Shown here piece by piece: positions 4,734 to 29,348 of a stretch of 64,000 bases of DNA (position 1 is the stretch's first letter; the number at the start of each line of letters is the position of its first letter). The notes under the pieces are model-generated. The model saw only the letters and a list, made by a program, of their open reading frames with translations, did not search any database and was not told the origin of the DNA. The stretch spans positions 1 to 64,000 of the forward strand of contig NZ_VOIQ01000019.1 of the NCBI RefSeq assembly GCF_010470675.1, given 5' to 3'. The stretch comes from Desulfovibrio sp. JC010 (lineage in GTDB: Bacteria; Desulfobacterota; Desulfovibrionia; Desulfovibrionales; Desulfovibrionaceae). The position numbers were made by a program, and so were the translations under genes.

Positions 4734-4788
4734 TTGACAAAATCTATTTGAATTTGTATCCATGACTCAAATTGAGATTCAATTTCAA
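4734..4788 (+). promoter_or_regulatory. promoter with Fur-like operator
   Basis: TTGACA at 4734-4739 and TATCCA at 4757-4762 are 17 bp apart. Just downstream, 4772-4788 (TTGAGATTCAATTTCAA) is a near-perfect 17-bp palindrome. By my count it agrees with 14 of 17 positions of the Desulfovibrio Fur consensus as I remember it (W-TGAAAAT-N-ATTTTCA-W). It would control the small membrane protein at 4817 and perhaps the fez-like operon beyond it. Confidence 0.45.
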
Positions 4789-4816
4789 ACTCAACAAAAA
4801 AACACGAGCAACAATC

Positions 4817-5107
4817 ATGAATACATTCCCCGAAAATTCAAAATATTCTTTCCCCGAAGTGGAAATTAAAAAGAAGAAAACCAAAACAAAAAAGTTCCGC
4901 CAGTGTAAAGACTGTCCCTTGCAGCCCAGCACAACCAAGACTGTTTCCAAAGTCGGCATGGTTGCCACACTTGGTGCTTCGGCTGCTTCTGGCGTGCTAA
5001 AATTCAAAGCAGCAAAACCCCTACACATTTGGGCATCAGTTGCATTCCTAGGCTTCACTGCCCTCCACTGGGCGGTTTCAGCCAGACCGGCAAGGCCTGC
5101 GAAATAA
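4817..5107 (+). CDS. small membrane protein with CxxC motif
   Basis: A 96-residue protein of unknown family. After a polar, Lys-rich N-terminus comes CKDCPLQP, then a small-residue hydrophobic stretch (GMVATLGASAASGV) and a second hydrophobic segment (ASVAFLGFTALHWA), ending ARPARPAK. This suggests one or two membrane passes with a basic tail. I chose ATG 4817 over the in-frame TTG at 4772 because the TTG lies inside the proposed operator; no strong ribosome-binding site supports either. Its place between the mobile element edge and the ATPase operon, and its Fur-like box, suggest it belongs to the iron locus. Confidence 0.55.
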   Translation: MNTFPENSKYSFPEVEIKKKKTKTKKFRQCKDCPLQPSTTKTVSKVGMVATLGASAASGVLKFKAAKPLHIWASVAFLGFTALHWAVSARPARPAK

Positions 5108-5419
5108 TACTCATGCCATTCAGTGAATTATTTTCTTAAAAATGTCATTCATAAGTCACTACTTCCAGATTCAAATGCGCTGATTTCCGTCTGCGCGTGG
5201 GTGATTTTGCTGCAATATCTCCACGTTCACCCTCTTTATTTTAATTCTCTTCTATCAATTATAATAAACTCGTGACAATGACTTGGAATTTCATTATCAA
5301 CCTCATGTTCGGCTTTTAATACATTATTTATAATTCCACCCCGCAATTATACTGCGAGACTTTGTGAATTATAGCCGGACAAGGCAAACCCTGTTTAATT
5401 GAACAAATCGAGCTCTGCA

Positions 5420-5454
5420 TTGAAAATGAATATCACGTTCTCGATTTGTATAAA
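5420..5454 (+). promoter_or_regulatory. Fur-box-like site before the fez-like operon
   Basis: TTGAAAATGAATATCAC at 5420-5436 fits 14 of 17 positions of the recalled Desulfovibrio Fur consensus. The overlapping 5422-5440 fits 13 of 19 of the classic GATAATGATAATCATTATC. A TATAAA at 5449-5454 could be the -10 element, with the site covering the -35 region. The rest of the 380-bp gap from 5108 is AT-rich and shows no gene. Confidence 0.45.
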
Positions 5455-5491
5455 AACCAAATATGACTATTAAAATTAGTTGGGATTAACT

Positions 5492-7726
5492 GTGAAACAA
5501 AATATTGTATTACGACATTCCACTCGCGGCAGAGTAAGATTCAACATCCGCAATCTTGTCAGAAATGACCACCTTGCCCAGAATCTTGACCTGGAACTGG
5601 GCAGGACCGGATATGTTGAAAATGTGCGCACCAATATCCGCTGCGGAAGCCTCATCATCCGTTTCAAGGCAGATAAAACCAGTGCGGAACAGCTTTATGC
5701 GTTTCTTAATGAGCTGCTCGGCTCGGCTGAAATCAACAGACCGCTGGGCATCGGCGGTCCCGCCTGTGCTTCCGACCTCTGCGAATGCAACGCCTGTGAA
5801 GTGACCCATGCCGGATGCAATCCGGTAAAATCAGCTTTCAGACGGTTTGTTGCCGTCAGTGCCGTCATGGGCGTTGTCTTTGTACGCACATCCATTCTGG
5901 GACTGACTGTGGCTGAAACCGCGCTTAGCCCCTTGGGCATCATTGCCATGGGACTTTCGCTGCCGCTCTTTAAAAAGGCATACGACCAGTTGAAAAGGAA
6001 ACGGTTCACACTTGAAGCCTTCCTTGGAGCCAGCTGTGTTGCCGCTGTTGCTGCCGGAGAAGCCCTGACCGCCTTTGAAGTGCTCTGGATCAACTCCGGT
6101 GCCGAGCTGGTCAAAGCGTGGATTACCGAACGTTCCCGCAAATCCATCAGCAGTATTCTGGAAGTGACTTCCCATCACACCTTTGTGCTGGTGGACGGAG
6201 TGGAAGTTGAACGGGAAGTCAAGGACCTGCGCAAAGGCGATATCGTTGTCCTGCACACCAGCGAAAAGGTCTGCGTGGACGGCGAAATCATCGACGGCGA
6301 GGCCCTCATGGACGAATCTCCCATTTCCGGGCGTTCAGACTTCGTGCCCCGTCAGGTAGGTGATGAAGTTCTGGCCGGAACCTTTGTCCGTCAGGGTGTT
6401 ATCTATGTACGGGCCAATGAAGTGGGCGATCGTACCTACCTCTCAAGGGTTCTGAAAATGGTTGAAGATTCGCTTGAAAACCGCGCCCCCATTGAAGGCA
6501 TCGCCGACCAGCTGGCCGCCAACCTTATCAAAGTGGGCTTTGTGACCACTGCGGGAACATGGCTCATTACCGGAAGCCTCTACCGGGCATTCACTGTGCT
6601 GCTGGTCATGGCCTGCCCCTGTGCAACTGTTCTGGCGGCCTCCACTGCGGTTTCCGCAGCAATCAGCGCGGCAGCCAAACGCAACATTTTAATCAAGGGC
6701 GGACGTTACCTTGAAGAGGTCGGTAAAACAGATACCGTCTGCTTTGACAAAACAGGAACCCTGACCACCAACGAACCGGTGCTGGCTAAGATTGTTCCTT
6801 TGAACGGCTCAAACGAAGAGCGCATCCTGCAAATGTCTGTTTCAGTGGAAATGCACAACCATCATCCTCTGGCACAGGCCATTAAAATGGAAGCAGATGC
6901 CCGCGAAATCGCGCCTGAAGAACATTCAGTATGCGAATATTTTCTGGGCATGGGCATGCGTGCGGAAGTCAGCGACAACGAAATTCTGGTCGGTAACCGC
7001 AAGCTCATGGATAAACATGAGGTGGAAATTGCGGATGCGGCGAAAAAAACAGCTCCCCTGCGCAGGCAGGGCCGCACAGTGCTCTTCGTAGCAGAAAGCA
7101 AAAAAATCATCGGACTGCTGGCCTTCGACAACCTGATCAGGCCCGAAAGCACCGAAGTATTGCAGCAACTGAAACACAACGGTGCTGAAAATATCGTTCT
7201 CATCACCGGCGATGAACCGAACACTGCCAAAGAGCTTTCCAGACGTCTGGGCATCCCCAAGGTTCATGCCTCGGTAATGCCTGAAGACAAGGCAAATATT
7301 GTCGATGAAATGCAGGCCGCAGGCGCAGCAGTGCTCATGGTCGGCGACGGCGTGAATGACGCTCTGGCCCTGACCCGCGCTGACGTCGGCGTCGCCATGG
7401 GAGCCGGGGGAAGCGAAGTCGCCATTGAAGCGGCGGACATCGCTCTGGTAAATGATGACTTAAACGGACTGGTTTATGTGCAGTCTTTAAGCCAGCAGAC
7501 CCTGAAAGTGGTTCACCAGAACTTCTGGATCGCCACCGGATCAAACCTTGCCGGGGTTGTCTTCGGTGCCTTAGGCATGCTGACCCCGATCATGGCCGGT
7601 ATGATCCACATTGGACATTCTCTGGGAGTACTGGCAAACTCAGCACGTTTGCTGCGCTATGAGCCGCCCGCGCTGGCAATAGAAACAACTCCGATAGACG
7701 TAACTCCAAAGGAGCAATTGACATAA
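5492..7726 (+). CDS. P1B-type metal ATPase 1, HMA-like N-terminus, TGE motif replaced
   Basis: A 744-residue P-type ATPase. Residues 1-80 form an HMA-like fold with an Arg motif (TRGRVRFNI) where a CxxC metal loop would be. A linker holds five cysteines between 92 and 109 (CASDLCECNACEVTHAGC). Membrane segments follow, then the actuator domain, CPC at 375-377, phosphorylation site D419 in DKTGTLT, an NHHPLA nucleotide-binding motif and GDGVNDALAL. The actuator loop reads ISGRSD (279-281) where TGE is expected, so the dephosphorylation glutamate is missing although everything else looks intact. The start is GTG 5492 with GGGA six bases upstream; TTG 5480 is the alternative. The stop overlaps the next ATG (TAATG). 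Probably a ferrosome FezB relative, or a partner of the other two ATPases. Confidence 0.85.
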   Translation: MKQNIVLRHSTRGRVRFNIRNLVRNDHLAQNLDLELGRTGYVENVRTNIRCGSLIIRFKADKTSAEQLYAFLNELLGSAEINRPLGIGGPACASDLCECNACEVTHAGCNPVKSAFRRFVAVSAVMGVVFVRTSILGLTVAETALSPLGIIAMGLSLPLFKKAYDQLKRKRFTLEAFLGASCVAAVAAGEALTAFEVLWINSGAELVKAWITERSRKSISSILEVTSHHTFVLVDGVEVEREVKDLRKGDIVVLHTSEKVCVDGEIIDGEALMDESPISGRSDFVPRQVGDEVLAGTFVRQGVIYVRANEVGDRTYLSRVLKMVEDSLENRAPIEGIADQLAANLIKVGFVTTAGTWLITGSLYRAFTVLLVMACPCATVLAASTAVSAAISAAAKRNILIKGGRYLEEVGKTDTVCFDKTGTLTTNEPVLAKIVPLNGSNEERILQMSVSVEMHNHHPLAQAIKMEADAREIAPEEHSVCEYFLGMGMRAEVSDNEILVGNRKLMDKHEVEIADAAKKTAPLRRQGRTVLFVAESKKIIGLLAFDNLIRPESTEVLQQLKHNGAENIVLITGDEPNTAKELSRRLGIPKVHASVMPEDKANIVDEMQAAGAAVLMVGDGVNDALALTRADVGVAMGAGGSEVAIEAADIALVNDDLNGLVYVQSLSQQTLKVVHQNFWIATGSNLAGVVFGALGMLTPIMAGMIHIGHSLGVLANSARLLRYEPPALAIETTPIDVTPKEQLT

Positions 7727-8037
7727 TGGATTTTCAATTGTTGATGGAACTTCGGGACTACCTGACGATAAAACATCATGTTCCCGGACGCATCCGCATA
7801 AAATTAGCCGCAAAACTGCTGGCTGATCCAAGGACTAAAAAGCTGAAAGAGGAGGCAGGGGAAACCCCGCCTCCTTGTATTATTAGCAGCAAGTTCAATT
7901 TTTTTACCCGCAACGCTGTCATTGAGTACGACCCGGAAGTAATTAGCCCGGAAAAACTGCATGAGGCGTTGACCACCGACGACCCGGAAAGATTTCAGGA
8001 ACTGGCTGCGGAATTTGAATCAATCATGACCGCATAA
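7726..8037 (+). CDS. HMA-like domain protein
   Basis: A 103-residue soluble protein whose ATG overlaps the stop codon of ATPase 1 (TAATG), so the two are translationally coupled. The N-terminal IKHHVPGRIRIKLAAK is the Arg-motif strand seen in HMA_2-type domains. The last strand appears in FTRNAVIEYDPEVISPEKL. There is no CxxC. The order of motifs and the C-terminal helix (DDPERFQELAAEFES) match the proteins at 15812 and 29001, so it is one of at least three stand-alone copies of this fold here. Proteins of this type occur in ferrosome gene clusters; a role in targeting or metal hand-over to the ATPases is inference. Confidence 0.75.
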   Translation: MDFQLLMELRDYLTIKHHVPGRIRIKLAAKLLADPRTKKLKEEAGETPPPCIISSKFNFFTRNAVIEYDPEVISPEKLHEALTTDDPERFQELAAEFESIMTA

Positions 8038-8063
8038 CCATGTTTAATAAAGGAGACGAAAAG

Positions 8064-8729
8064 ATGGAAGACACCAGACAGGCCTACGCCGCCCCCGGCG
8101 ATCCCGCTGAGAATGCTCAGGCCCAGCCCAGTGTCCAGCAGGCCGCACCACAGCAACCGGCTGCGCCGCAACAGGCAGCGCAGCCCCAGATGACTGCCCC
8201 CCAGCAGCCCTCTGCCCAGTACGCTCAGCCCGCCATGGGCTCAGTGCAGTACACCCAGCCGCAGGCCGGGGGATTTTACCAGTATGTACCCGGAGCAGGA
8301 TTCGTGCAGGTTCAGCCGATGCAGCAACCGGTACAACAGTCCGCGCCGACCATGCAGTCAGCCCAGACGTTTCAGCCTGATTTAAAAACTCAGGCCGCTG
8401 CCCAGCCCGTTGCTGGTGCCGCAGCAGCACAAGCCGCACCCGAAACCGCCCAGACCAAAGTTGACCAGAACAAACTCGGCCAGATGTACGGCGTAATGAC
8501 CGACATCATGAACGGTGAAGCCGATCCCGAAAAAATCATGTCCCTGTTTCAGGATACTGACGGTGATTTCTGGAAAGGTGCCATTGTCGGTGCCGCAGTG
8601 GGGTTCCTGGCCAGCAATGAAACTGTACGCGGTACTGTGGCCGGAGTAGTCGGTTCCATGCTCGGCGGGGAAAAAGATCCCGAAGGGCCGCAAGTAACCG
8701 TACCCACCGACACTGAAAACGAATCTTAA
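8064..8729 (+). CDS. Pro/Gln/Ala-rich protein with glycine-rich membrane segment
   Basis: A 221-residue protein in two parts. Residues 1-140 are low complexity, full of P, Q, A and Y (repeated QPAAPQQAAQPQ-type stretches, QYAQP, QYTQP), hence probably disordered. Residues 141-221 hold a short helix (LGQMYGVMTDIMNG), then the small-residue segment GAIVGAAVGFLASNETV and GTVAGVVGSMLGG, then an acidic tail. The segment resembles those at 9396 and 15210. I moved the start from ATG 8040 to ATG 8064, which has AGGAGA in front. Such a protein could coat or scaffold an organelle membrane; that is inference from composition and context. Confidence 0.7.
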   Translation: MEDTRQAYAAPGDPAENAQAQPSVQQAAPQQPAAPQQAAQPQMTAPQQPSAQYAQPAMGSVQYTQPQAGGFYQYVPGAGFVQVQPMQQPVQQSAPTMQSAQTFQPDLKTQAAAQPVAGAAAAQAAPETAQTKVDQNKLGQMYGVMTDIMNGEADPEKIMSLFQDTDGDFWKGAIVGAAVGFLASNETVRGTVAGVVGSMLGGEKDPEGPQVTVPTDTENES

Positions 8730-8762
8730 TACTATTCTCTACCATAATCGAAGGATTTTAAC

Positions 8763-9374
8763 ATGGCACAAAACAACGATAAAACAACCCTGCTCCAGAC
8801 AACCCTCGGCACCGCATTCCTCGGTGCAATCATCGGCGGCACCGGAGCGGCAGCAAAAGCAATCCGTGAAGTGAGCAACGAGCAGAAAAGCAAAGAAGAA
8901 GCTGTAATCGACGTTGCCAAGGAAGCCGGGGCAACAGCTGTTGCGGCGGGTGTATCCGCTGCGGCAGTCGGTGCTCTTAAACTCGGTCCGGTCCTCTCCA
9001 CTGTGGGCATCATCGCCGTGGCAACCGGAACGAAATACGCCATGGACAGCGTGCTCAAGCCTGCTGAAGCCCTTGCGGAAGTGAAGGCTCCGGCCAAGAA
9101 AAAGCACGCTCCTCTGGTCATGGAACCCAAGGCCAAGCCGAAGAAAAAACACGCCCCTCTGGTAATGGAATCAAAGGAAGAAAAACCTAAAAAAACAACC
9201 AAAGCTGCTGCCAAGAAAACCACGACAAAGAAAACAACAGCTAAAAAGACTACAGCCAAAAAAGAAACAACCCAAAAAGCCGCACCCAAGAAAACCACCG
9301 CGAAGAAGACAACTGCTAAAAAAGCAGAAGTCGTTAATATTGATTCCAGCAAAAGCGAACCAACCGAAAAATAA
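8763..9374 (+). CDS. glycine-zipper membrane protein with histone-H1-like Lys-rich tail
   Basis: A 203-residue protein. Residues 1-100 have small-residue hydrophobic stretches (GAIIGGTGAAAKAI, GVSAAAVGALKLGPVL, VGIIAVATGTKYAMD) typical of glycine-zipper membrane helices. Two near-identical segments follow (KKKHAPLVMEPK, KKKHAPLVMESK), then a run of AKKTT-type repeats to the end. The N-terminal half is clearly paralogous to the 110-residue protein at 15448 in the opposing operon, which lacks the tail. The basic tail could bind DNA, phosphate or iron-phosphate mineral; these are guesses. An AAGGA ribosome-binding site is present. Confidence 0.7.
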   Translation: MAQNNDKTTLLQTTLGTAFLGAIIGGTGAAAKAIREVSNEQKSKEEAVIDVAKEAGATAVAAGVSAAAVGALKLGPVLSTVGIIAVATGTKYAMDSVLKPAEALAEVKAPAKKKHAPLVMEPKAKPKKKHAPLVMESKEEKPKKTTKAAAKKTTTKKTTAKKTTAKKETTQKAAPKKTTAKKTTAKKAEVVNIDSSKSEPTEK

Positions 9375-9395
9375 GACGAATAGAAGGAATAAAAA

Positions 9396-9752
9396 ATGAA
9401 CGACTACATCAATCAGCCCCAGCCCGGCACGTCTCCCGACGAAACTGTTTCACAGTCCAGCACCGAGAATTTTGTTGTACAGCAACCTACCCAGACCGCA
9501 GTAGCCGCAGCCCCGGAAGCTGCTCCGGCAACGACTGATTCCTCCTTGACTTCATGGGTAAATGTAACCAATACGGACTACCTCAAAGGTCTGGCTCTCG
9601 GCGCGGGCATCGCCCTTGTTGCAACCAACCCCACCGTGCAGAAAGCAGTGGTCTCCGGCACTGTCAAGCTCTGGGCTGCCCTTCAGGGCGGAGTGGAAGA
9701 GCTGAAAGAACAGGTTCAGGACGCAAAAGCTGAAATCAGCCAGCAGGATTAG
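9396..9752 (+). CDS. small glycine-rich membrane protein
   Basis: A 118-residue protein. A Gln/Thr/Ala-rich N-terminus (about 1-60) precedes the membrane segment YLKGLALGAGIALVATNPTV, followed by an amphipathic acidic helix (VEELKEQVQDAKAEISQQD). The KG-x3-GA-x-G...TN-x-TV pattern recurs at 8064 (WKGAIVGAAVGFLASNETV) and 15210, defining a small family inside this locus that looks a little like YtxH-type proteins. Ribosome-binding site AAGGAA. Its stop is 12 bp before the ATG of ATPase 2. It is probably a membrane component of the same compartment. Confidence 0.65.
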   Translation: MNDYINQPQPGTSPDETVSQSSTENFVVQQPTQTAVAAAPEAAPATTDSSLTSWVNVTNTDYLKGLALGAGIALVATNPTVQKAVVSGTVKLWAALQGGVEELKEQVQDAKAEISQQD

Positions 9753-9763
9753 TGAGGCAAACC

Positions 9764-11899
9764 ATGACCGTGAAAACGGAACCCAAAAAAGCCTTCTCCA
9801 TTGCCCATGAGGTGAAAAAAAGGATCAGACTGCGCAGTCGCAGACTTTTCGATCCCTCGCTGGACCTCAATTATCTTGAAGCAATGGTTGAAAACCTTCC
9901 CGGCGTATCCAGTGTCAGGACCAATAAATGGGGTTCAAGCATTGTCATTGAATATGACGGCAACCGGAAAAACCGGGAACGCATCCTCAACCTGCTCGAA
10001 AATATTCCCATGGAAGCATACATGCCCGGCGGAGTGGAGAATGAAGAAGTTTCCCTGCCCACAGTGGCAGCGCAGGGTGCCACAGCAGCCCTGACCCCCT
10101 TCCTGCCTCCGCAGGCAGCGGCTCCGGCAAGCTGGCTCATGGGCATGCCGACCATGCTCGAAGGTCTGCATACCCTGCTCTATGACGGCGTAAAAGTTGA
10201 AGTGCTCGATGCTTCGGCTGTCGCATTTTCCCTGCTCAGACAGGACTATTTTACGGCCAACGCCATTGTCGCCATGCTCGGTCTCGGCTCCTACATGGAA
10301 AGTCTGGCCGAGAAAAAATCAGATGACCTGCTTAAAAGTCTGCTCCGCCCGCAGGTGGAAATGGTCTGGGTTGAGCGTGATGCTCAGGAAGTCCAGATTG
10401 AGTTCACTGACCTTGTCGTCGGCGATCTGGTCATCTGCGGTTCCGGGGAACTGATTCCCGTAGACGGCGTGGTTGTGGACGGCGACGCGGCCCTGAACCA
10501 GAGTTCCATTACCGGGGAATCCCTGCCTGTTGCCGTTACCGAAGGGGACGAAGTCCTTTCCGGCGCGGTTGTTGAAGACGGACGCATCAAAATCGCGGCC
10601 AGCAATGTCGGCGGCGAAACCAGCATGGCCCGCATCGGAAGATTTCTTGAAAACTCCCTGCGCACCCAGTCCACCTCCCAGAAAAAAAGTGACGAACTGG
10701 CCGACAAGCTGGTGCCCATCACCTTCGGCCTCGGCCTCGGTCTCTTTGCCCTGACCCGCGACATTACCCGTGCGGCTTCCGTGCTCACCGTTGACTACTC
10801 CTGCGCCATCAAGCTGGCTTCCCCGGTAGCGGTCAAGACCGGAATGCACGCGGCAGGACACAGCGGCGTACTGCTCAAGGGTGCGCAGGCTCTCGACAAC
10901 CTTGCCCGCATCGATACCATTGTTTTTGACAAAACCGGAACCCTGACCCGTGGCGATTTACAGGTTGCCGATGTCATACCCCAGCCGGGCATGTCGGCTG
11001 AAGAACTGCTCTCGCTGGCCGCCGGGGCTGAAGAACATTATTCCCACCCGGTAGCCCGTGCGGTCGTAGCCGAAGCAAAATCCCGCGAACTGGAACTGCC
11101 GCCCATAAGTCAGGTTGACTTTATCGTGGCCCACGGTGTTTCCGCCTATGTTGAAGGAAAGCAGGTGCTGGTAGGCAGCCGCCACTTCCTTGAAGATGAC
11201 GAAGGCGTTGACTGTTCCGGCGTTGAAGAAGCAGGCAGAGAACTGCGCGCCAACGGCAAATCCTTGCTCTACGTGGCCCGTGCAGGCAAGCTGCTCGGTA
11301 TCATTACCCTGCGCGACGAACTGCGCGAGGAAGCCTCCGAAGCCCTTGCCATGCTCAAGGAACGGGGCATCAAAAAGATCGTCATGCTCACCGGGGACCA
11401 TCAGGATACCGCCAAAGCAATTGCCGCCGAACTGGGCTGCATTGACGAAGTCCACTGGGAGCTCAAACCCGAAGACAAAGCGGATCTGGTCAAGCAGCTT
11501 CAGGAATCCGGCGATTTCCTCGCCTTTGCCGGAGACGGGGTCAACGACGCCCCGGCACTGGTTTCCGCCGATGTGGGTATCTGCATGCCCGGCGGAGCGG
11601 ACCTTGCCCGCGAATCCGCACAGGTTGTGCTCCTAGAAGACGACCTGCGCATTCTGGCCGTGGCCCGCGATGTAGCCGAAAACACTCAGCATGTGCTTAA
11701 AAGATGTTTTCAAGCCGCTGTGGGCATCAACTCCGCAGTGCTCGTCGGAGCCACCACCGGAAAACTTTCCCCGGTTGTCTCCGCATTCCTGCACAACGCC
11801 AGCACACTGGGCATTCTGGGCTACGCTGCCGCAGCAGGCAATAAGAAACCGGCTTCCGCAGACCTGATTTCCTCTGCCGCAACTCTGGAGAAAAACTAG
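9764..11899 (+). CDS. P1B-type metal ATPase 2, YSC in place of CPC
   Basis: A 711-residue P-type ATPase. The N-terminal HMA-like domain (about 12-85) carries KKRIRLRSRRLF instead of a CxxC loop. The actuator motif TGES is intact at 250-253. The metal-site helix reads DYSCAIKLASP with C347: the CPx proline is replaced by Ser, but a Pro remains at C+7. D389 is in DKTGTLT, SHPVA is the nucleotide-binding HP motif, and GDGVNDAPAL is normal. The C-terminus has HNASTLGILGYAAAAG. I start at ATG 9764 with GTGAGG upstream, not GTG 9752 inside the previous stop. This looks closest to the ferrosome-type (P1B-6-like) FezB ATPases, but the subclass needs a phylogeny. Confidence 0.85.
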   Translation: MTVKTEPKKAFSIAHEVKKRIRLRSRRLFDPSLDLNYLEAMVENLPGVSSVRTNKWGSSIVIEYDGNRKNRERILNLLENIPMEAYMPGGVENEEVSLPTVAAQGATAALTPFLPPQAAAPASWLMGMPTMLEGLHTLLYDGVKVEVLDASAVAFSLLRQDYFTANAIVAMLGLGSYMESLAEKKSDDLLKSLLRPQVEMVWVERDAQEVQIEFTDLVVGDLVICGSGELIPVDGVVVDGDAALNQSSITGESLPVAVTEGDEVLSGAVVEDGRIKIAASNVGGETSMARIGRFLENSLRTQSTSQKKSDELADKLVPITFGLGLGLFALTRDITRAASVLTVDYSCAIKLASPVAVKTGMHAAGHSGVLLKGAQALDNLARIDTIVFDKTGTLTRGDLQVADVIPQPGMSAEELLSLAAGAEEHYSHPVARAVVAEAKSRELELPPISQVDFIVAHGVSAYVEGKQVLVGSRHFLEDDEGVDCSGVEEAGRELRANGKSLLYVARAGKLLGIITLRDELREEASEALAMLKERGIKKIVMLTGDHQDTAKAIAAELGCIDEVHWELKPEDKADLVKQLQESGDFLAFAGDGVNDAPALVSADVGICMPGGADLARESAQVVLLEDDLRILAVARDVAENTQHVLKRCFQAAVGINSAVLVGATTGKLSPVVSAFLHNASTLGILGYAAAAGNKKPASADLISSAATLEKN

Positions 11900-12643
11900 A
11901 TGTATACAAGCTTATTCAATGCCCCCACCGGGGTTCCGCTCAAGATATCACGCATCAACGATGAAGATCTGGAAGCCCGCATGGGCCGCATGGGCCTTTT
12001 CATCGGCGGGGAAATCACCCGCCTTGATGAAGAAGTAGCCCTGCAAACCATCCGGGTCAAAGGCCCCAAGGGTGAAGTTGTCCTTGGCGGCGGCATGGGC
12101 GGCAAGGTTATCGCCCATCTTGATGACGGACGCATGGTTCCCCTGCTGGAAATGAAACCCGGCGAAACAGGGCACGTGGAATGCGTCACCGCCGGAGGCC
12201 CCCTGCGCGAAGGCATGGCCGCCCTTGGCCTGAAGGATGACGATAATATTGAAATGATCCGTATCCTGCCGCCCATGGAATTTGTCGCCGTAATCGAAGG
12301 GCGCGGACGCATCCGCCTTGCCGAAGGCATGGCCGCCAAAATTCTCGGACACATGGGCGATATTGAATGCCAGTTCGCCAATGCCCAGGCCGGGGTTGAT
12401 TTTGTGGTCGACAAGATCATCGGCGGCAAACGCGCCCAGCGGGCCATCGGTTCCCTTGAAATCACCCCCGGACTGACCCTGCGTCTTGAATCCGTGGAAA
12501 AAGCCCCCAGCTATCAGATGACCGGACGCAGCCGCTGCGTCATCAGCACCCATGAAGGCTTGCGTTTATTCCTGCGCCACGACCAGTCCGACATGGTCAT
12601 CGTCACCTATGACGATGAAGACGAGACCGGGGAAGAAGCATAA
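11900..12643 (+). CDS. triple FeoA-domain protein
   Basis: A 247-residue cytosolic protein built from three FeoA-like SH3 modules, roughly 10-80, 82-160 and 165-240. Repeated signatures are the 'RMGRMGLFIGGEI' and 'GMAALGLKDDDNIEMI' type helix-turn followed by short strands. FeoA normally has about 75 residues and acts with FeoB. Here it starts immediately after the stop of ATPase 2 and ends immediately before the ATG of ATPase 3, so it is locked between two ATPases. A regulatory or assembly role for the transporters is the natural inference. The domain call rests on pattern and length, since the modules are diverged. Confidence 0.65.
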   Translation: MYTSLFNAPTGVPLKISRINDEDLEARMGRMGLFIGGEITRLDEEVALQTIRVKGPKGEVVLGGGMGGKVIAHLDDGRMVPLLEMKPGETGHVECVTAGGPLREGMAALGLKDDDNIEMIRILPPMEFVAVIEGRGRIRLAEGMAAKILGHMGDIECQFANAQAGVDFVVDKIIGGKRAQRAIGSLEITPGLTLRLESVEKAPSYQMTGRSRCVISTHEGLRLFLRHDQSDMVIVTYDDEDETGEEA

Positions 12644-14728
12644 ATGAGCACAGCAAAAGCTCACGGACCGCGCATAGTCCATGAGACTGCCAAGCGTATC
12701 CGCTTCAAATGGTCCAGACTTCTCAGCCCGGAGCTTGACCCGGATTATCTGGAAGCATGGCTCAGCAATCTGCCCGGAGTGGATGCGGCAAGGATCAATC
12801 CCCCGGCCCGCAGTCTGGTCATTAAATATGATGGCACAGCGGACAACCGCGAGCAGATTCTCGCCGGGTTTGAGCGCATTCCCAGTGATGCCTTCGGTAA
12901 AAAGGAACCTGCCGGGCGCAGGCGCAGATTGATTGACGCCGCCTTCAGCGCACATCTTGCCGCAGTCCTGCCCTTCGTGCCTCCGGCTGTACAGGCCCCG
13001 GTAGCCATTGCCATGGGCGGACCGGTGGTTCTCAGCGGACTCGATTCTTTGATCAACGAAGGGCTTACGGCCCGTGTTCTCGATATGACCACCATCGGAG
13101 CCAGTCTGCTCAGAACCGATTTCACCACCGCCGCTTCAATCGCGGCCATGGTGGTGGTCGGTGATTATCTGCGCACCATGACTGACGACAAATCCAACTC
13201 CCTGCTCAAAAGCCTGACCGCCGATCCGGTGGACAAGGTCTGGGTCAAACAGGACGGCAAAGAACAGGGCATCAGCTTCGATGAAGTCAAAATCGGCGAT
13301 ACAGTCCTTTGCGGCAACGGAGATCTGGTCGCCGTGGACGGGGTGGTCACAAAAGGTGAAGCCCTGCTCGATAAAAGCTCCATCACCGGGGAATCAACTC
13401 CGGTCACTGTCACTGCGGGTGATGAAATCATTTCGGGCAGCGTGGTTGTGGAAGGTAAGTTGGAGATTTCCGCCACACAAACCGGTGCCGACACCAGCAT
13501 GGCCCGCATTGCCGAGTTCATGACCCGCGCATTGCAGGAACAATCCAAAGCCGAAAAACAAAGTGACCGCCTTGCCGATGCACTGACTCCCATAACACTG
13601 GGACTCGGAGCCGCACTTTACGCTGTCACCGGCGACATGGAGCGGGCTTTATCCGTACTGACCATTGATTTCGCCTGCGCGGTAAAATTCCCGGCTCCGG
13701 TGGTCATCAAGACCTCCATGCACACCGCCGCCAAGGAGGGGATACTCTTTAAGAGCGGATCTGCCCTTGAATATCTGGCCGAGGTTGATGCCGTCGTCTT
13801 TGACAAAACCGGGACCCTGACCTGCGGAGAACTGGCAGTCACAGACATCGAACTCTGCGCCGACTATGATGAAGATGAATTCATCAGGCTGGCCTCGGCG
13901 GTGGAAGACCGCTACGGGCATCCTGTCGGTCTGGCTATCATCCGCAATGCCGAGGAGCGGAACCTGACACCGCACCCGGCCACGGAAATCGACCTGACCA
14001 TAGCCCACGGTGTCAGCGGCATGGTGGGCGGGAAACTGATCCGGGTCGGCAACCGCCATTTTATTGCTGATGATTGCGGGGTGGACTGCTCCGCTGTTTC
14101 CGAAAAAGCAGCAGAACTACGCGCTGAAGGCAAAACCCTTGTCTATGTTTCCGCTGACGGAGAGCTGATCGGTATTGCCGCACTCATGGACACCATCCGT
14201 GATGAAGCCGCAGAGATTGTTGAATCATTAAAGGAAAACGGCATCAAAAAAGTAATCATGCTTACCGGGGACCATAAAGGGACCGCAGATTTCTTTGCCG
14301 CGCAGTTCCAGCACGTGGATGAAATCAGGGCTGAACTAACCCCGGACAAAAAGGCAGCCGAGGTAAAAAGACTTCAGGACGAAGGATACAAAGTCGCGGT
14401 GGTGGGTGACGGGGTAAATGATGCCCCGGCCTTCACTGTAGCCAACGTGGGCATCTGCATGTCCCAAAGTACCGGACTGGCCCGTGAATCCGCACAAATT
14501 GTCCTGACCAAGAATTCCCTGCACGGGTTGCTTGATGCACGCAGCATTTCACTGCGGGTTAATACTATTCTGAAGAACTGCTTCAGGACCGGAGTGGGAG
14601 TCAATGTGGGACTCATGGGCGCGGCCACTGCCGGGCTGCTTAAGCCCACCGCAGCAGCAGCCCTGCATAACCTGAACACCTTCGCCATACTCGGCGCGGC
14701 AGCTTGGAGTTCTTCTCGAAGAATATAG
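12644..14728 (+). CDS. P1B-type metal ATPase 3, FAC in place of CPC
   Basis: A 694-residue P-type ATPase paralogous to ATPase 2 throughout. Its N-terminal HMA-like domain (about 8-85) has TAKRIRFKWSRLL in place of a metal-binding CxxC. TGES lies at 248-251. The metal helix reads DFACAVKFPAP with C345, again lacking the CPx proline. D387 is in DKTGTLT, and GDGVNDAPAF follows. The C-terminus runs HNLNTFAILGAAAW and ends SSSRRI. The ATG follows directly on the upstream TAA. Last gene of the plus-strand operon. The close similarity to ATPase 2 suggests duplication followed by specialisation, or a heteromeric pump arrangement. Confidence 0.85.
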   Translation: MSTAKAHGPRIVHETAKRIRFKWSRLLSPELDPDYLEAWLSNLPGVDAARINPPARSLVIKYDGTADNREQILAGFERIPSDAFGKKEPAGRRRRLIDAAFSAHLAAVLPFVPPAVQAPVAIAMGGPVVLSGLDSLINEGLTARVLDMTTIGASLLRTDFTTAASIAAMVVVGDYLRTMTDDKSNSLLKSLTADPVDKVWVKQDGKEQGISFDEVKIGDTVLCGNGDLVAVDGVVTKGEALLDKSSITGESTPVTVTAGDEIISGSVVVEGKLEISATQTGADTSMARIAEFMTRALQEQSKAEKQSDRLADALTPITLGLGAALYAVTGDMERALSVLTIDFACAVKFPAPVVIKTSMHTAAKEGILFKSGSALEYLAEVDAVVFDKTGTLTCGELAVTDIELCADYDEDEFIRLASAVEDRYGHPVGLAIIRNAEERNLTPHPATEIDLTIAHGVSGMVGGKLIRVGNRHFIADDCGVDCSAVSEKAAELRAEGKTLVYVSADGELIGIAALMDTIRDEAAEIVESLKENGIKKVIMLTGDHKGTADFFAAQFQHVDEIRAELTPDKKAAEVKRLQDEGYKVAVVGDGVNDAPAFTVANVGICMSQSTGLARESAQIVLTKNSLHGLLDARSISLRVNTILKNCFRTGVGVNVGLMGAATAGLLKPTAAAALHNLNTFAILGAAAWSSSRRI

Positions 14729-14776
14729 TTTGGATGCGCTTCGCGTTTTTTGATTGAAAGATTTTGCCTCCGGCGG

Positions 14777-14804
14777 CTTAAACCCTTTTGCAAAAGGGTT
14801 TAAG
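14777..14804. repeat. 28-bp perfect palindrome in an intergenic repeat
   Basis: CTTAAACCCTTTTG followed by CAAAAGGGTTTAAG is a perfect 14+14 palindrome. It is flanked by GCCTCCGGCGG at 14766-14776 and ACGGCTTCGCCG near 14823. The composition recalls short intergenic hairpin repeats of Desulfovibrio genomes. The element lies just after ATPase 3 and may end its transcript or stabilise the mRNA. Confidence 0.6.
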
Positions 14805-14915
14805 AATCCCAAAACCTTTTATTACGGCTTCGCCGTTTTGGATTTCAAAGATCGTCTTAATAAACTATATGCGATAGCTAACTAAAACGTCTTTGAAAGA
14901 GAGGGGATGGGGTCT

Positions 14916-14970
14916 GGGGAAGGGGAGAGAAAAGCTTTGGGCGTTAGCAAAGTTTTCTCTCCCCTTCCCC
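14916..14970. repeat. long near-perfect inverted repeat
   Basis: The arm 14916-14939 (GGGGAAGGGGAGAGAAAAG, then CTTTG) pairs with 14948-14970 apart from one bulged base, leaving an 8-base loop. The stem is about 23 bp. It has no adjacent T-run of its own, and lies in the gap between the convergent operons, so it may be a mobile intergenic hairpin or part of a compound terminator. Confidence 0.6.
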
Positions 14971-14988
14971 AGCCGCCGGAGGCATCAA

Positions 14989-15028
14989 AAAAAGCCCATG
15001 TTTCCATTACCGGAAACATGGGCTTTTT
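14989..15028. terminator. bidirectional terminator between convergent operons
   Basis: AAAAAGCCCATGTTTCC (14989-15005) pairs perfectly with GGAAACATGGGCTTTTT (15012-15028) around a 6-base loop. A/T runs on both sides let it serve both the ATPase operon and the opposing small-protein operon. Confidence 0.85.
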
Positions 15029-15048
15029 GATCTTCTCTTAGGGACTAA

Positions 15049-15195
15049 CTATTTACCGCGCTTGCCGCCGCCTTTTTTCGCGACAGGTCCGCCCTTTCTA
15101 TGGGTATGACGATGACGGTTCTTGCCGCCGAATATCATGGGGACCAAAACAAGAGCCGAAACAGCTCCCAATGCAAAGGTAAACAGAGAATTCAT
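15049..15195 (-). CDS. 48-residue membrane microprotein with basic His/Lys/Gly tail
   Basis: A short reading frame encoding MNSLFTFALGAVSALVLVPM followed by IFGGKNRHRHTHRKGG and a Lys/Gly-rich end. One N-terminal membrane helix (about 4-22) carries a strongly basic, histidine-containing tail. The start is supported by an unusually strong ribosome-binding site (AGGGAGGG) on the minus strand. It is the last gene of the minus-strand operon, directly before the shared terminator. The His-rich basic tail could bind metal or anionic mineral. No family recognised. Confidence 0.7.
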   Translation of the reverse strand: MNSLFTFALGAVSALVLVPMIFGGKNRHRHTHRKGGPVAKKGGGKRGK

Positions 15196-15209
15196 AATCC
15201 CTCCCTGAT

Positions 15210-15431
15210 CTAAGCTTCAACCTCGGCTTCAGCCTTGGCGTCTTTGATCATTTCTTTCATTTCGTTGCTTGCTTTCTGAAAAGTGTCAACGGTCCAGTCT
15301 TTAGCCTTGATACCGGCCTTGATGGTGCACTGGGTTGCTTTTTTAACTGTTTCAGATTTGGTGGCTGCGTATCCGAGGGCTCCACCGACAACAGTACCTG
15401 CTGCAAAAATAGCTACTCTTCCGAGACTCAT
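15210..15431 (-). CDS. small glycine-zipper membrane protein
   Basis: A 73-residue protein with one N-terminal small-residue membrane helix (AIFAAGTVVGGALGYAATKS) followed by an amphipathic, charged helix ending AKAEAEVEA. The arrangement matches YtxH-like small proteins and the KG/GA...TV family at 8064 and 9396 of the opposing operon (here GGALGYAATKSETVKKA). Second-last gene of the minus operon, 17 bp after its upstream neighbour. It is probably a structural membrane component of the iron compartment; function inferred from context only. Confidence 0.65.
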   Translation of the reverse strand: MSLGRVAIFAAGTVVGGALGYAATKSETVKKATQCTIKAGIKAKDWTVDTFQKASNEMKEMIKDAKAEAEVEA

Positions 15432-15447
15432 AATTTTCTCCTTATAT

Positions 15448-15780
15448 TTAAGCTGAAACTTCTTCAGCGTTGGGTTCGGGCTTGAAAGCGAATTTCTTGT
15501 CCCAAAGGTGTTTGGTCCCGGCGGCCACGCCCACGATGCTGACCACGCCCAGCAGCCCGGTCAGGCCGAGAATACCGGTCACGGCGACTCCGGCGGCTGT
15601 GGAAAGGCCGGTTCCAACCGCTTCTTTGCCGATGTCGGCTGCGGCTTCGCTTTTGGTCATTTCGCCATCGCTAATACGTTTAATATCTTTGGCTGCTGCG
15701 ACAGTAGCACCGACAACAGCACCCACAGTACCTGACGCGCTTACTGCGGCAGGGAGTAATACTCTGGAATCTACAGCCAT
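15448..15780 (-). CDS. glycine-zipper membrane protein, paralogue of 8763 gene
   Basis: A 110-residue protein with small-residue hydrophobic stretches (GTVGAVVGATVAAAKDI, GILGLTGLLGVVSIVGVAAG) separated by a charged helix containing KSEAAADIGKEAVGT. It aligns over nearly its full length with residues 15-90 of the Lys-tailed protein at 8763 (KSKEEAVIDVAKEAGAT, IIAVATGTKYAMD against VGVAAGTKHLWDK). It ends in a short polar tail rather than the Lys-rich repeats. The paralogy ties the two convergent operons together. Confidence 0.7.
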   Translation of the reverse strand: MAVDSRVLLPAAVSASGTVGAVVGATVAAAKDIKRISDGEMTKSEAAADIGKEAVGTGLSTAAGVAVTGILGLTGLLGVVSIVGVAAGTKHLWDKKFAFKPEPNAEEVSA

Positions 15781-15811
15781 AACGGAACTCCTTAAAACCC
15801 GGAAACCGGGG

Positions 15812-16159
15812 CTAGTTCAAAAATGTGGACAAATCAAAATTCACTACGTCGGCCAGTTCCACTGCGGTTTCCTGAAACTCGTCCGCGCTTTCACAGGTAA
15901 AAAGCCTGTGCATAAGCTGAGGATCGATAATTTCATCATCGTACTGCATGGTCATGGAACGGGTCAGCGGGTTGAACGAAGTCTTGCCGATACCGGGCAT
16001 ATCCTGCCCCTTGGGCGGTCCGAACCCGTTCACCTTTACGTACTTTATTACCTTGGGATTTCCGATAACGCCAAGGTCGAATTTGAGTTTCAATTTACCG
16101 GGAACATGACTGCCTACGGTGATATGGTCACGCAGGCCCAGCATGAGATCAAGATCCAT
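15812..16159 (-). CDS. HMA-like domain protein
   Basis: A 115-residue protein starting MDLDLMLGLRDHI. The Arg-motif strand of the family is changed to VPGKLKLKF. A conserved central stretch (VKYVKVNGFGPPKGQDMPGI) and the C-terminal helix ending DLSTFLN follow. It is closely similar along its whole length to the gene at 29001 and more distantly to the one at 7726. No CxxC. It overlaps the upstream HMA-like gene by one base (TAATG). It likely belongs to the ferrosome-associated HMA_2 group; the ligand is unknown. Confidence 0.75.
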   Translation of the reverse strand: MDLDLMLGLRDHITVGSHVPGKLKLKFDLGVIGNPKVIKYVKVNGFGPPKGQDMPGIGKTSFNPLTRSMTMQYDDEIIDPQLMHRLFTCESADEFQETAVELADVVNFDLSTFLN

Positions 16160-16398
16160 TACATAACCCTCTGAGTAGCCTGATTTTTAAACATATCGAC
16201 TACTTCCTTTTCAGTATATACAGAACCGTCAAAACGGACCACGAGTCCGGCGCAAAGCCTGTTTGCCCGTGCCCAGTGGATGCCTTCAATATCTTCAGCG
16301 TATTTTTCAAGACTGCTGGCAGTCTTGGCATTGCGCACAGCGGGAAGCTTAATTCTCACTCGGTGGGGCAAACTGTGTTTTACTCTAACTTTTTCCAT
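16159..16398 (-). CDS. small HMA-like domain protein
   Basis: A 79-residue protein consisting of one HMA-like fold: RVKHSLPHRVRIKLP (Arg-motif strand), a helix, GIHWARANRLCAGLVVRF and a final helix. Its pattern matches the N-terminal domains of the three ATPases in the plus operon (strand RVRI/RIRL, then LVVRFDGS or IVIEYDGN). There is no CxxC; a single Cys lies in the third strand. First gene of the minus-strand operon, with a ribosome-binding site AAGGAG. It could act as a detached N-terminal domain, exchanging with those of the ATPases. Confidence 0.75.
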   Translation of the reverse strand: MEKVRVKHSLPHRVRIKLPAVRNAKTASSLEKYAEDIEGIHWARANRLCAGLVVRFDGSVYTEKEVVDMFKNQATQRVM

Positions 16399-16669: not shown

Positions 16670-17569
16670 TCAACTCTTTCCAACAAGAGCCGAAAGATTA
16701 CTCTTATACCACTTTAAAAGCTGCTCAAGGGGAGCCGCTCCTTTTGAATAAACAAATTTATTCAACACCACCGCCCGCGCCCCGGAATCAGCGATTACTT
16801 TGGCAGCCAATTCGCCCGGTTCCCAAGGGCAGATCACGGTTTTGACTTCATCCTGTTTGATCAATGCACCGAGGTTCTGCGCATCGCCTTCGGTCCAGTA
16901 ATCTTCCTGTTTCAGGAAATGAAAATGCACATTGAGACCGAATTCATCAGCAAGATAAACGTAACCGGCGGTCAACGCGCCGAATTCGTTGGACTCCAGA
17001 TCAAGAAATTTATCCTCATATTCAGCCCGCAACTTGAACAAAGCAGCCTGTAATTTCTTCAAGTTACCGTTAATCTTCTCTGCCTGATCCGGGTACATCC
17101 GGCCCAGATCATCTGTCACGATGGATGCCATGCGGGTCAGGTTGGCCGGACTGCGCCAAACGTAAGGAACATAGGTTCCGTTAATTTCCGTGAGCGGCAC
17201 CCCGGCACCGTAGCCGTCAAGAGGCTTCCCGGCATCAATGTCCACAATACGGATATTGCCCCTTCTGGCCCACAGGTAAAGGGGGTCGGCAGCCCAGACT
17301 GAAGTGACAGCAACTACAGCATCGGCTCTAGCTGCCTTGGCAAAAAATTTCTTTTGGTGTTTTTTGAAATAGGCCTTGTGTCCGGCCATGGAATAAACTC
17401 CCGGCACCACGTTCTCTACATTAATATATGTATCCGCACAAAGCACTTCGCAAAGCACCTGCGTAATATCGAGTGAGGTCAGCACAGTTGGCCTTTCTTC
17501 TGCCTGAGCGACAGAACCTGCCCCGAACAAAACCACCGCCAACAAAAAGATAAACACTGATTTCTTCAT
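16670..17569 (-). CDS. TroA-like metal ABC transporter binding protein (second SBP)
   Basis: A 299-residue periplasmic protein with a Sec signal (MKKSVFIFLLAVVLFGAGSV, cleavage after AQA). It looks like a cluster A-I (TroA/ZnuA) metal-binding lipocalin-free fold, with the pattern of two lobes joined by a long helix (YPDQAEKINGNLKKLQAAL). Its metal-ligand motifs are less canonical than those of the first binding protein at 19203. Start overlaps the permease stop (TAATG), so it is co-translated as the last gene of the operon. Two binding proteins for one permease suggest different metals or chelates, or sequential hand-over. Confidence 0.8.
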   Translation of the reverse strand: MKKSVFIFLLAVVLFGAGSVAQAEERPTVLTSLDITQVLCEVLCADTYINVENVVPGVYSMAGHKAYFKKHQKKFFAKAARADAVVAVTSVWAADPLYLWARRGNIRIVDIDAGKPLDGYGAGVPLTEINGTYVPYVWRSPANLTRMASIVTDDLGRMYPDQAEKINGNLKKLQAALFKLRAEYEDKFLDLESNEFGALTAGYVYLADEFGLNVHFHFLKQEDYWTEGDAQNLGALIKQDEVKTVICPWEPGELAAKVIADSGARAVVLNKFVYSKGAAPLEQLLKWYKSNLSALVGKS

Positions 17570-18474
17570 TACGCACCAGCCTGTTTGAATGAACCGGAAA
17601 CAGAACGCAGAGCCGCAGTTCCGGCAAAAATGAACGAAGCCACAAGGATGATCGCACCGCCGGATGGAACCGGAATCTCAAACTGCATGGGAATAATAAT
17701 CCCCAGAATGCAGCTCACGGTGGCGAAAAGAACACTGTAAAAAAAGAATCCTTTGATGGAACGGCTCACGTTACGCGCCGCCGCAGCCGGAATAATCAGC
17801 AAAGCTTCCACCAGCACCGCGCCGACAATTTTCAAACAAGCCACGGTAATAACAGTGATCATGAGCACGAAAATATAGTCGTAGAGCTTGGCGTTGATTC
17901 CCCGGACCATGGCCAGCGAAGGATTGAAACTGGCCAGCAGCATGCGGTTGTAGAGCGGAAACCCGATGCCGATACACAGGGCGGCGATAATCAACAGCAC
18001 GTTCATATCGGTATCATTGACCGTCAGAATCGAACCGAAAAGGATGTTGTCCAGCACATGCATATTCACTTTACCGGTCACATAAAGCAGCACGCAGGCC
18101 CCCACCGCAAGGGAGATGGAAAGAAAAACCCCGATGACCGTATCCTGTGTCATGCGGGTCCGGTTGCGGGTATAGTTCATTGCCAGCGCGAAAATTATGC
18201 AGAACCCGAAAAGCGATGCATAGGGTGCGGTAACAGGCTCACCCAGCAGAACACCGATGGCCACCCCGGTCAAAGCGGCCTGCCCCACTGCCTGCGAAAA
18301 AAAAGCCAGTCGCTTAGCCACAACCATGGTCCCGATGCCGCCCAGAAGCGGCCCGGCCATTAAAGCGCAGATCAAAGCATTAACAACAAAAGCGTATTGC
18401 AAGAATTCGGGAAGCAGACCTGCTTTGGCCCATTCCATAATAGGAAGACGGATCAAATCGTATATGTATTCCAT
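17569..18474 (-). CDS. ABC-3 family metal permease (ZnuB-like)
   Basis: A 301-residue polytopic inner-membrane protein with about eight to nine hydrophobic segments. Family features include LLGGIGTMVVAKRLAFFSQAVGQAALTGVAIG near the N-terminus and the VGAVLVEALLIIPAAAARN stretch late in the protein. It forms the channel for a Zn/Mn/Fe-type importer with the ATPase at 18484. It follows that gene by 9 bp. Confidence 0.9.
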   Translation of the reverse strand: MEYIYDLIRLPIMEWAKAGLLPEFLQYAFVVNALICALMAGPLLGGIGTMVVAKRLAFFSQAVGQAALTGVAIGVLLGEPVTAPYASLFGFCIIFALAMNYTRNRTRMTQDTVIGVFLSISLAVGACVLLYVTGKVNMHVLDNILFGSILTVNDTDMNVLLIIAALCIGIGFPLYNRMLLASFNPSLAMVRGINAKLYDYIFVLMITVITVACLKIVGAVLVEALLIIPAAAARNVSRSIKGFFFYSVLFATVSCILGIIIPMQFEIPVPSGGAIILVASFIFAGTAALRSVSGSFKQAGA

Positions 18475-18483
18475 GTTTGTGCC

Positions 18484-19203
18484 TTAATTAGAAGAAAAAA
18501 CAGTAAAAATACGTTCGGTAGTAAGTTCCTGCTGCGGATCACCGGAAAAGAGCACAGAGCGGTTGATGCAGGTCACCCCGTGGGCCATATCACGCACTAC
18601 TGCGAGATCGTGGTGAATAATAAGCACGGTGGTCCCGGCTGCACAGAGGTCTTCGATGATCTTATGCATGATAGCCGCTCCGGCCTTATCAAGCCCGGTG
18701 GCGGGTTCATCAAGGATGAGCAGCTTGGGACTGGGCATCAGCGACTGGGCCAGCAGCACCCGCTGCCTCTCACCGCCGGACAGGGAGCCGAAAGGCCGCT
18801 CCATCTTTTCAGCCATCCCGACCCTTTTCAGGGCCTGCAAAACTTCCGCGCTCCGGTCCTTTTTCAAACCCAGAAATGCGGGACGCCTTTTCTGACCGAC
18901 CATGGTCATGAAATCGACTACGGTCATGGGCAGGGTATCGTCAAAATCAAGAGCCTGCGGCACATAACCTACGGTGGATTTGCCGTTCCAGCAGACCGTA
19001 ATATCCCCGCTGTGCGGCATCTGGCCCAGCAGGCAGCGCAGGAGCGAGGTCTTGCCGCCGCCGTTGGGACCGATAATGCAATGAATGGAACCGGATTCAA
19101 CCTTGAACGCGACTTTATCCAGAATTTGATTGCCGCCCAGCTTCAGGCCTACATTATTAAAATGAATGGAAGGCCCTTTTTCCAAACTGATTTCAGTCTT
19201 CAT
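18484..19203 (-). CDS. metal ABC transporter ATPase (ZnuC-like)
   Basis: A 239-residue ATP-binding subunit. Walker A is GPNGGGKTS, the signature is LSGGERQRVLLAQSL, Walker B is LLILDEPATGLD, and the switch His lies in VLIIHHDLAVV. The Q-loop is in YVPQAL. Drives the ABC-3 permease at 17569. Its ATG overlaps the stop of the binding protein (TAATG). The metal cannot be told from the ATPase. Confidence 0.93.
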   Translation of the reverse strand: MKTEISLEKGPSIHFNNVGLKLGGNQILDKVAFKVESGSIHCIIGPNGGGKTSLLRCLLGQMPHSGDITVCWNGKSTVGYVPQALDFDDTLPMTVVDFMTMVGQKRRPAFLGLKKDRSAEVLQALKRVGMAEKMERPFGSLSGGERQRVLLAQSLMPSPKLLILDEPATGLDKAGAAIMHKIIEDLCAAGTTVLIIHHDLAVVRDMAHGVTCINRSVLFSGDPQQELTTERIFTVFSSN

Positions 19204-29032: not shown

Positions 29033-29348
29033 CCATATAAATATTGAAAAACATACTCCGGGCAGCTTGAAACTTAAATTCGGCATGGAGCTGATCGTTA
29101 ATCCCAAAGTGGTTAAATATGTTAAAGTCAACGGTTTCGGACCACCCAAGGGAGAGGAAATGCCCGGCATGACCGGAACCAGATTTAATCCGCTGACCCG
29201 TTGCATGACCATTTCCTATGATGAAGAGATCCTCAAACCGGAACTCCTGCAAAAACTTTTCACCTGTGAATGCGAAGATGAATTCCAACACGCAGCTCAG
29301 GAACTGGCCGATGCCGCCCATTTTGATCTGGCTACTTTCCTGCACTGA
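29001..29348 (+). CDS. HMA-like domain protein, close paralogue of the 15812 gene
   Basis: A 115-residue protein starting MDLELMLGLRDHINI, with TPGSLKLKF in the Arg-motif position and VKYVKVNGFGPPKGEEMPG. By eye about 70% of residues match the protein at 15812. It overlaps the mini-Fur gene and has AAAGGG before the ATG. It lies 12.5 kb from the main locus, behind a Fur-type operator, so it is a dispersed third member of the family that could link regulation to the same compartment. Confidence 0.75.
   Translation: MDLELMLGLRDHINIEKHTPGSLKLKFGMELIVNPKVVKYVKVNGFGPPKGEEMPGMTGTRFNPLTRCMTISYDEEILKPELLQKLFTCECEDEFQHAAQELADAAHFDLATFLH

Follow-up and report, generated by a model that had tools for sequence, protein, structure and literature searches.

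Ferrosomes, small iron-storing compartments, have so far been investigated in few organisms. The six-gene fez operon of R. palustris is RPA2333-2338 (PMC12016538), FezC of D. magneticus is described as a DUF4405-homologous cytochrome and heme binding is given as shown for FezC of Desulfurispirillum indicum (both in PMC10979944), and Fur control of fez is reported for C. difficile (PMC12574912). In the magnetosome, the other iron organelle of concern here, MamC is held to template magnetite via a loop for which Glu66 and Asp70 are named (PMC6584501). Here we describe a 64,000-nucleotide stretch of Desulfovibrio sp. JC010 (GCF_010470675.1, contig NZ_VOIQ01000019.1, positions 1-64,000; hereafter the window), in which the genes at 4772-16398 probably make up an expanded fez locus for the building and loading of ferrosomes. 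The predicted products are the parts of a six-gene-type operon (C, D, E, F, A, and G; Table 1) plus B, H, I, and the set J-K-L-M. This composition is not a matter of chance because these genes are found again in other genomes, for the most part with their order kept.

The locus consists of two convergent gene runs that encode three P1B-type ATPases, all of them intact, and as many stand-alone HMA-like proteins; a fourth HMA-like protein is encoded at 29001. The plus-strand row (4817-14728) has the order A to I, with spacing of -1 to 33 bases from B to I and a gap of 372 bases between A and B, and the minus-strand row runs from 16398 down to 15210 in the order M, L, K, J with spacing of -1 to 31 bases. 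Note that 4772 is the first TTG in an open frame and that the ATG at 4817 was taken as the start of the FezC-like gene A. A preliminary description of this DNA had reported that the two runs share small-protein families, which holds for C and L (33% identical, E 2e-25), for E and K (36% identical), and weakly for F and J (E 1e-4; profile probability 27.5%). It had also assigned to the three P-type ATPases HMA-like N-termini with an Arg motif and no CxxC, and had counted the stand-alone HMA-like proteins that we call C, L, M, and N; both observations stand, as R-x-R is present in B, G, and I and the one CxxC of B (residue 103) lies past the domain. Against the HMA_2 model (PF19991, cut-off 30) the N-termini score 43.4 bits (B), 26.7 bits (G), and 18.6 bits (I), B alone passing. 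The Arg motif is kept in C and M and is replaced by Lys in L and N (KLKLK and SLKLK).

Table 1 Features of the locus and its surroundings. Positions are those of the window; TM4 and TM6 are transmembrane segments 4 and 6.
Feature	Description	Positions	Strand	Evidence
A	Small membrane protein, FezC-like and DUF4405-like, with two conserved His	4817..5107	+	Pfam DUF4405 18.5 bits, cut-off 26.7 not reached
B	P1B ATPase, TM4 ACPCAT, HMA_2 R-motif N-terminus, own clade near FezB	5480..7726	+	Motifs, tree
C	Stand-alone HMA_2-like protein	7726..8037	+	PF19991 25.5 bits, under cut-off 30
D	Pro/Gln-rich protein, Gly-zipper C-terminus related to F	8040..8729	+	D-F profile comparison, 97% probability, E 5e-11
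E	MamC-like membrane protein, Lys-rich tail	8763..9374	+	NF038051 56.3 bits, E 3e-15, cut-off 100 not reached
F	Small membrane protein, FezA/YtxH-like position	9396..9752	+	F profile matches YtxH-annotated proteins preceding FezB
G	FezB-type P1B ATPase, TM4 DYSCAIKL, TM6 LHN	9752..11899	+	Motifs, tree
H	Double FeoA-domain protein between two pumps	11900..12643	+	PF04023 54.6 bits, two stretches
I	FezB paralog, TM4 DFACAVKF	12644..14728	+	Identity to G (see text); own clade 100/99
J	Small membrane protein, DUF6110-like, FezA-like	15210..15431	-	PF19605 18.7 bits, under cut-off 26
K	Second MamC-like protein	15448..15780	-	NF038051 54.8 bits, E 9e-15, under cut-off 100
L	Stand-alone HMA-like protein, Lys motif	15812..16159	-	PF19991 15.5 bits, under cut-off 30
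M	Stand-alone HMA_2 protein	16159..16398	-	PF19991 33.4 bits, over cut-off 30
N	Paralog of L	29001..29348	+	66% identity to L; without Pfam match of its own
ABC genes	ABC-3/ZnuA-type metal uptake system, possible supplier, not core part	16670..20114	-	Family matches

The plasmid clusters of Azospirillum, Cereibacter, Vibrio, and Arcobacter, which were equated with the published six-gene operon by gene number and content, resemble the window in keeping HMA-like, small membrane, and FezB genes together, and their FezB proteins (support 98/91) join the G/I lineage of the window at 100/99. The F profile matches the YtxH-annotated protein that immediately precedes FezB, at 47 bits in Azospirillum and 58 bits in Arcobacter. 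These clusters have one pump in the stretches opened, whereas the window adds B, I, the double-FeoA protein H, and a second convergent set. The plasmid search with G gave 4023 matching records, of which 4 were opened, and that with B gave at least 5000 records, all below 60% identity among the matches listed.

The RS-1-like genome G143, so called because we take it to be Desulfovibrio magneticus RS-1, also has adjoining FezA-like, FezB, and HMA_2 plus DUF4405-like FezC genes, and its pump shares the TM4 motif D-[YF]-S-C-A with G. The HMA_2 model, applied with E up to 1, found two matches there, the P1B ATPase (E 0.18) and the gene directly after it (E 1.2e-9), and the latter was also matched by the FezC profile (E 1.7e-8). 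This trio is very likely the fez operon of G143, because the HMA_2 and FezC-like protein follows the pump, a J-like protein precedes it (J profile, E 3e-4), and PMC10979944 describes FezC as DUF4405-like. Its pump scores 407 bits with G, 344 bits with I, and 265 bits with B. Unlike the window, G143 has the HMA_2 domain on its FezC, one pump in the 20 kb opened, and a best match to B of 34%. That best match (L077) was tried as the FezB of G143 and rejected, being of the CPC type and without fez neighbors in the open reading frame (ORF) list.

The C. difficile fez genes share with the window a FezB of the same clade and a small protein upstream that is matched by the J profile (29 and 27 bits in the two records), although no B, I, H, or MamC-like gene was found by profiles in those two records. 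Compared with FeoA (PF04023), H has two domains in one protein and is encoded between P1B ATPases rather than with FeoB.

Phylogeny of the P1B ATPases

B, G, and I are full-length proteins that keep DKTGT, TGD, and GDGxND. Their TM4 motifs differ by clade, and in TM6 the motif L-H-N-x-x-T is common to G, I, and other FezB proteins whereas B has H-x-x-H. FezB is presumably the P1B-6 class; the comparison used here is one of clade and motif. The careful tree contained 43 rows chosen from the collected pumps, 4 of the 80 named loci discussed below among them. Its FezB clade (29 rows, 100/100) holds G and I along with the pumps of G143 and of a C. difficile record, three further fez pumps from named loci, and four from plasmids. 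The B pumps form a separate clade (9 rows, 100/100). The B clade, the FezB clade, and one further pump, that of L208, group at 99/97 with their internal order not settled, and E. coli CopA and ZntA lie outside, so that B, G, and I are all separate from the two E. coli pumps (the ZntA row, like L077, has a long branch). A quick tree of 80 selected rows, 12 of them from named fez loci, agrees with the 43-row tree.

On motifs and phylogeny G, the middle ATPase, is the FezB-type pump of the locus. B, which has the best HMA_2 match, had been considered for this role and was rejected after the RS-1-like operon and the trees. I groups with its relatives and an orphan pump of contig C10 (7 rows, 100/99) within the G/I lineage (17 rows, 100/100), the fork tying the I group to some G pumps being weaker (92/79).

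Several other pumps were encountered. The orphan (L090, G000:C10:1-12000, at 2539-4653) is a FezB-like ATPase of the JC010 genome with TM4 DYVCSVKF and a relative in G088 (L095); no other profile match was found in the 12 kb opened around it. The L208 pump (G452, 5137-7467) is a P1B pump in neither the B nor the FezB clade that groups with both and lies in a fez-type row. L124, one of the 80 named loci and from a Desulfovibrio metagenome-assembled genome, has two FezB-type pumps about 9 kb apart (360 and 9074).

Recurrence of the locus

Among 247 genomes of the same family, B-type pumps (E 1e-130 or better) are present in 46 and MamC-like matches (E 0.001 or better) in 48. All 46 B-type genomes are also MamC-like when the tables are compared by eye, about 9 being expected were the two independent, a figure uncorrected for relatedness. 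In 45 of the 46 both genes are on one contig with starts less than 5 kb apart, the exception being G244, where two contigs carry them. With identity of 51% or more required, G-type pumps occur in at least 44 genomes, all among the 46, and an I-type pump (a further FezB-like pump beside G) in at least 14; these counts are lower bounds, read by eye from four scored candidates per genome. In G202 and G182, which have B without a listed G, B lies at a contig end.

Twenty loci chosen from the G matches were opened, some of them cut by contig ends. G, F, and a MamC-like gene were found in all 20, B, C, D, H, and a FezC-like gene in 19 each, J in 16, I in 12, L in 9, and M in 6. The FezC-like ORF lies between F and G in 18 of the 19 loci having one, and both FezC-like His residues are present in all 20 aligned proteins, as read from the alignment. 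A carries a CKDC motif, which is seen in 5 of the 20 aligned FezC-like proteins. The locus thus comes in two versions: one is a core of MamC, B, C, D, F, FezC, G, and H, and the other is expanded by I and, in some loci, also by the convergent J-K-L-M. The JC010 genome itself has a second locus of the core type on contig C4 (L034, G000:C4:25001-44000, at 6192-13540; MamC-like, B, C, D, F, FezC-like, G, H). These data agree in part with the preliminary description, which had suggested that the pumps and gene clusters be compared. Its enlarged ferrosome-type locus is well supported, G and I being inside the FezB clade, and in the family, the Desulfovibrionaceae, B and MamC-like genes go together and the module recurs in opened loci. 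B, however, lies outside the FezB clade though near it, which by the description's own refuting condition speaks against this third pump, and the several loading pumps and the different or compartmented store that it proposed are conjectural. The FezC-like protein A, the double-FeoA protein H, the MamC relation of E and K, and the mobile setting go beyond that description.

Outside the family, 395 genomes of the phylum (some overlapping with the 247) gave 13 MamC-like matches, 5 of them in the family of the window, and the other 8 were opened. The whole core from B to H is present in G413, G453, and G261. In G452, B and C are accompanied by a further P1B pump and by D, MamC, F, and FezC. The locus of G398, cut by a contig end, combines D, MamC, F, and FezC with a FezB-type pump, and the short contig of G516 combines the same four genes with G and H. 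On the short contigs of G412 and G315 D and MamC were found, plus F in G412. All 8 thus have fez-type small genes, and 6 of the 8 have a pump in view. In named genomes the scan used the FezB TM4 segment as query, MamC alignments being too variable, and it leans to RS-1-type operons. No B-clade or I-type pump was found by profiles among the best 80 of the 574 named FezB loci; many of these 80 are on short contigs, and a few have other P-type ATPases with low scores against every profile.

These distributions bear on whether the extra pumps are simply redundant, I being a duplicate of FezB kept for dosage in a normal ferrosome that has more of the same. This explanation has a real chance of being correct, although we judge it somewhat more probably wrong. 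I is 47% identical to G over nearly the full length, groups inside the G/I lineage, and was not seen in 8 of the 20 opened loci, but it has a conserved TM4 motif of its own, and all 12 loci with I also match J (some weakly, at 18-25 bits), which is found in 4 further loci without I.

MamC-like proteins and points against the proposed fez locus

E and K align to positions 5-91 and 5-92, respectively, of the 97 positions of NF038051. In plasmid fez clusters a MamC-like protein is encoded just before F and FezB in Vibrio and Arcobacter (NF038051 35.8 and 29.1 bits), while NF038051 did not match the counterparts of this protein in Azospirillum and Cereibacter. The plasmid search with K gave no match, and the best hit of the MamC-like profile in a PDB search (E 0.024) was not credible. 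The curated cut-off of NF038051 was reached in none of the 247 same-family and none of the 395 phylum genomes. The MamC-like proteins look like part of one large fez operon class, which is wider than the present locus but does not take in every class, because they are fez-linked outside the family and in Vibrio and Arcobacter, yet none was seen by profiles at the best 80 of the 574 named loci. Two of the 48 family matches lie outside the B-type genomes. One, in G156 (L215, 8448-11072), is a weak MamC-like protein (23.5 bits) that adjoins an RS-1-type FezB and may be real; the link between MamC and fez may thereby extend to the RS-1 class too. The other, in G243 (22.4 bits), lies within a 607-amino-acid frame and was taken as chance.

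The presumed places of Glu66 and Asp70, mapped onto 29 fez-linked proteins without a MamC sequence for comparison, are acidic in 21 of 29 at the first and 15 of 29 at the second, and the Glu of the following GKE motif is kept in all 29. This pattern fits homology and allows a mineral role.

Several results weigh against an expanded fez locus with MamC-type parts. E and K reach about half of the NF038051 cut-off and are homologs, not members, of that family; the complete acidic pair is present in just 11 of the 29 proteins, both window copies included; and the structure model of K was poor (mean predicted local distance difference test score 54) and was not used. No MamC-like protein was found in G143, nor any MamC match at E 0.01 or better among the best 80 of the named FezB loci, and ferrosomes therefore form without a MamC-like protein. 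B lies outside the FezB clade, and the FezC-like and FezA-like calls are sub-threshold matches. Moreover, a scan of the window at up to 3 mismatches gave no canonical Fur box, the consensus being of the E. coli type, from which the Fur motif of the host may differ; Fur control need not mark every fez locus.

Genomic setting and proposed working of the locus

To the left of the locus (15-4671) are a topoisomerase III gene and ArdC-type genes, and a MobA-type relaxase is encoded at 44661-46289. A near copy in G193 is 87-93% identical to the window from position 1 to about 25984, and left of the matching stretch G193 (L221) has genes of the type IV secretion system and type IV pilus kinds, which encode a coupling protein of the former system, TrbI, a secretin, an ATPase for secretion, and a shufflon-type pilin. 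The locus probably sits on a conjugative element, the ends of which were not found. B and G of the window are 95-96% identical to those of G193 and 80-84% identical to those of another genus (G240, G198) versus 56-60% to their own C4 copies, a pattern that fits either an intergeneric transfer or an ancient duplication followed by losses. A palindrome, AWTGANNNTCAWT, is found at 4771-4783 upstream of A and at 28570-28582, at the start of the open frame (28571-29032) that precedes N. It occurs 3 times in the window versus 0.77 expected, a count reached by 6 of 100 shuffles, and is a possible operator.

Right of the locus a run of iron and metal genes (16670-42669) encodes a ZnuA-type ATP-binding cassette (ABC) uptake system, DUF6162 and DUF4198 proteins, FeoB, a Fur-family regulator, a second FeoB at 40480, and a periplasmic binding protein. 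The ORF list also has a FeoA-like ORF at 24904. In L082 (1321-8911), the pump of which groups with the RS-1 class in the 80-row tree, and in L086 (848-9170), both from other genomes, ABC genes of this kind and an HMA-like gene are located a few kb upstream of a FezB-type pump, an arrangement hinting that the ABC uptake system feeds the iron store. The same system could instead supply a second metal besides iron, such as Zn or Mn, which B or I would load into the store. B has CPC where G and I have YSC and FAC, and the ABC uptake genes lie beside the locus, in its G193 copy, and near the FezB-type pumps of L082 and L086. However, an ABC substrate-binding gene was present in only 1 of the 20 opened loci, that of the G193 near copy, and the two FeoB genes point to iron in the wider neighborhood, although the Fur-family regulator could serve another metal; we consider a second-metal store unlikely. 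P1B ATPases are best known as exporters, and the locus adjoins conjugation-type genes and its B has the CPC motif of E. coli CopA and ZntA, but a resistance island in which three ATPases expel excess metal and no organelle is made is quite improbable, as G and I group with ferrosome-operon pumps rather than CopA or ZntA and as FezC-like, small membrane, and MamC-like proteins travel with the pumps.

If the locus is an expanded fez locus, G would move Fe(II) into a membrane vesicle, the shape of which would depend on the FezA-like small proteins, and the FezC-like cytochrome would adjust the redox state of the iron. The basic HMA-like domains may hold the components to one another or to the pumps instead of carrying metal via cysteines. 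For the work of the extra pumps and a contact of the MamC-like proteins with mineral, we infer the following. H might gate the pumps, much as FeoA acts on FeoB; I might load this organelle as well, in different conditions or at a different step; B might handle a second metal or act earlier in loading; and E and K might sit in the ferrosome membrane and aid mineral formation as MamC does in magnetosomes. These roles of B, H, I, E, and K are speculative, the probability of each being well under one half. Taken together, they give a proposal that we make tentatively and regard as rather doubtful: ferrosomes and magnetosomes would have in common a membrane protein that handles mineral, a member of the MamC family older in fez operons than in magnetosome islands, and the locus would be a transferable, FeoA-gated kit with three non-equivalent pumps (B, FezB, and the FezB paralog) for an organised rather than amorphous iron store.

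Neither a multi-pump fez locus nor a link between MamC and ferrosomes was found in the literature searched, the founding ferrosome papers lying outside that search, and the novelty of the locus is provisional. One pump is present in the stretches opened for G143 and C. difficile; the locus indicates that fez loci can reach three pumps, drawn from two classes, and have a FeoA-type protein among them. If the MamC-like proteins are ferrosome parts, a protein that controls magnetite size has relatives in another iron store. This would link two bacterial iron organelles and make the evolution of mineral-forming organelles directly testable. Finally, the conjugation-type genes next to the fez locus suggest that bacteria may pass the capacity to make an organelle on to one another.

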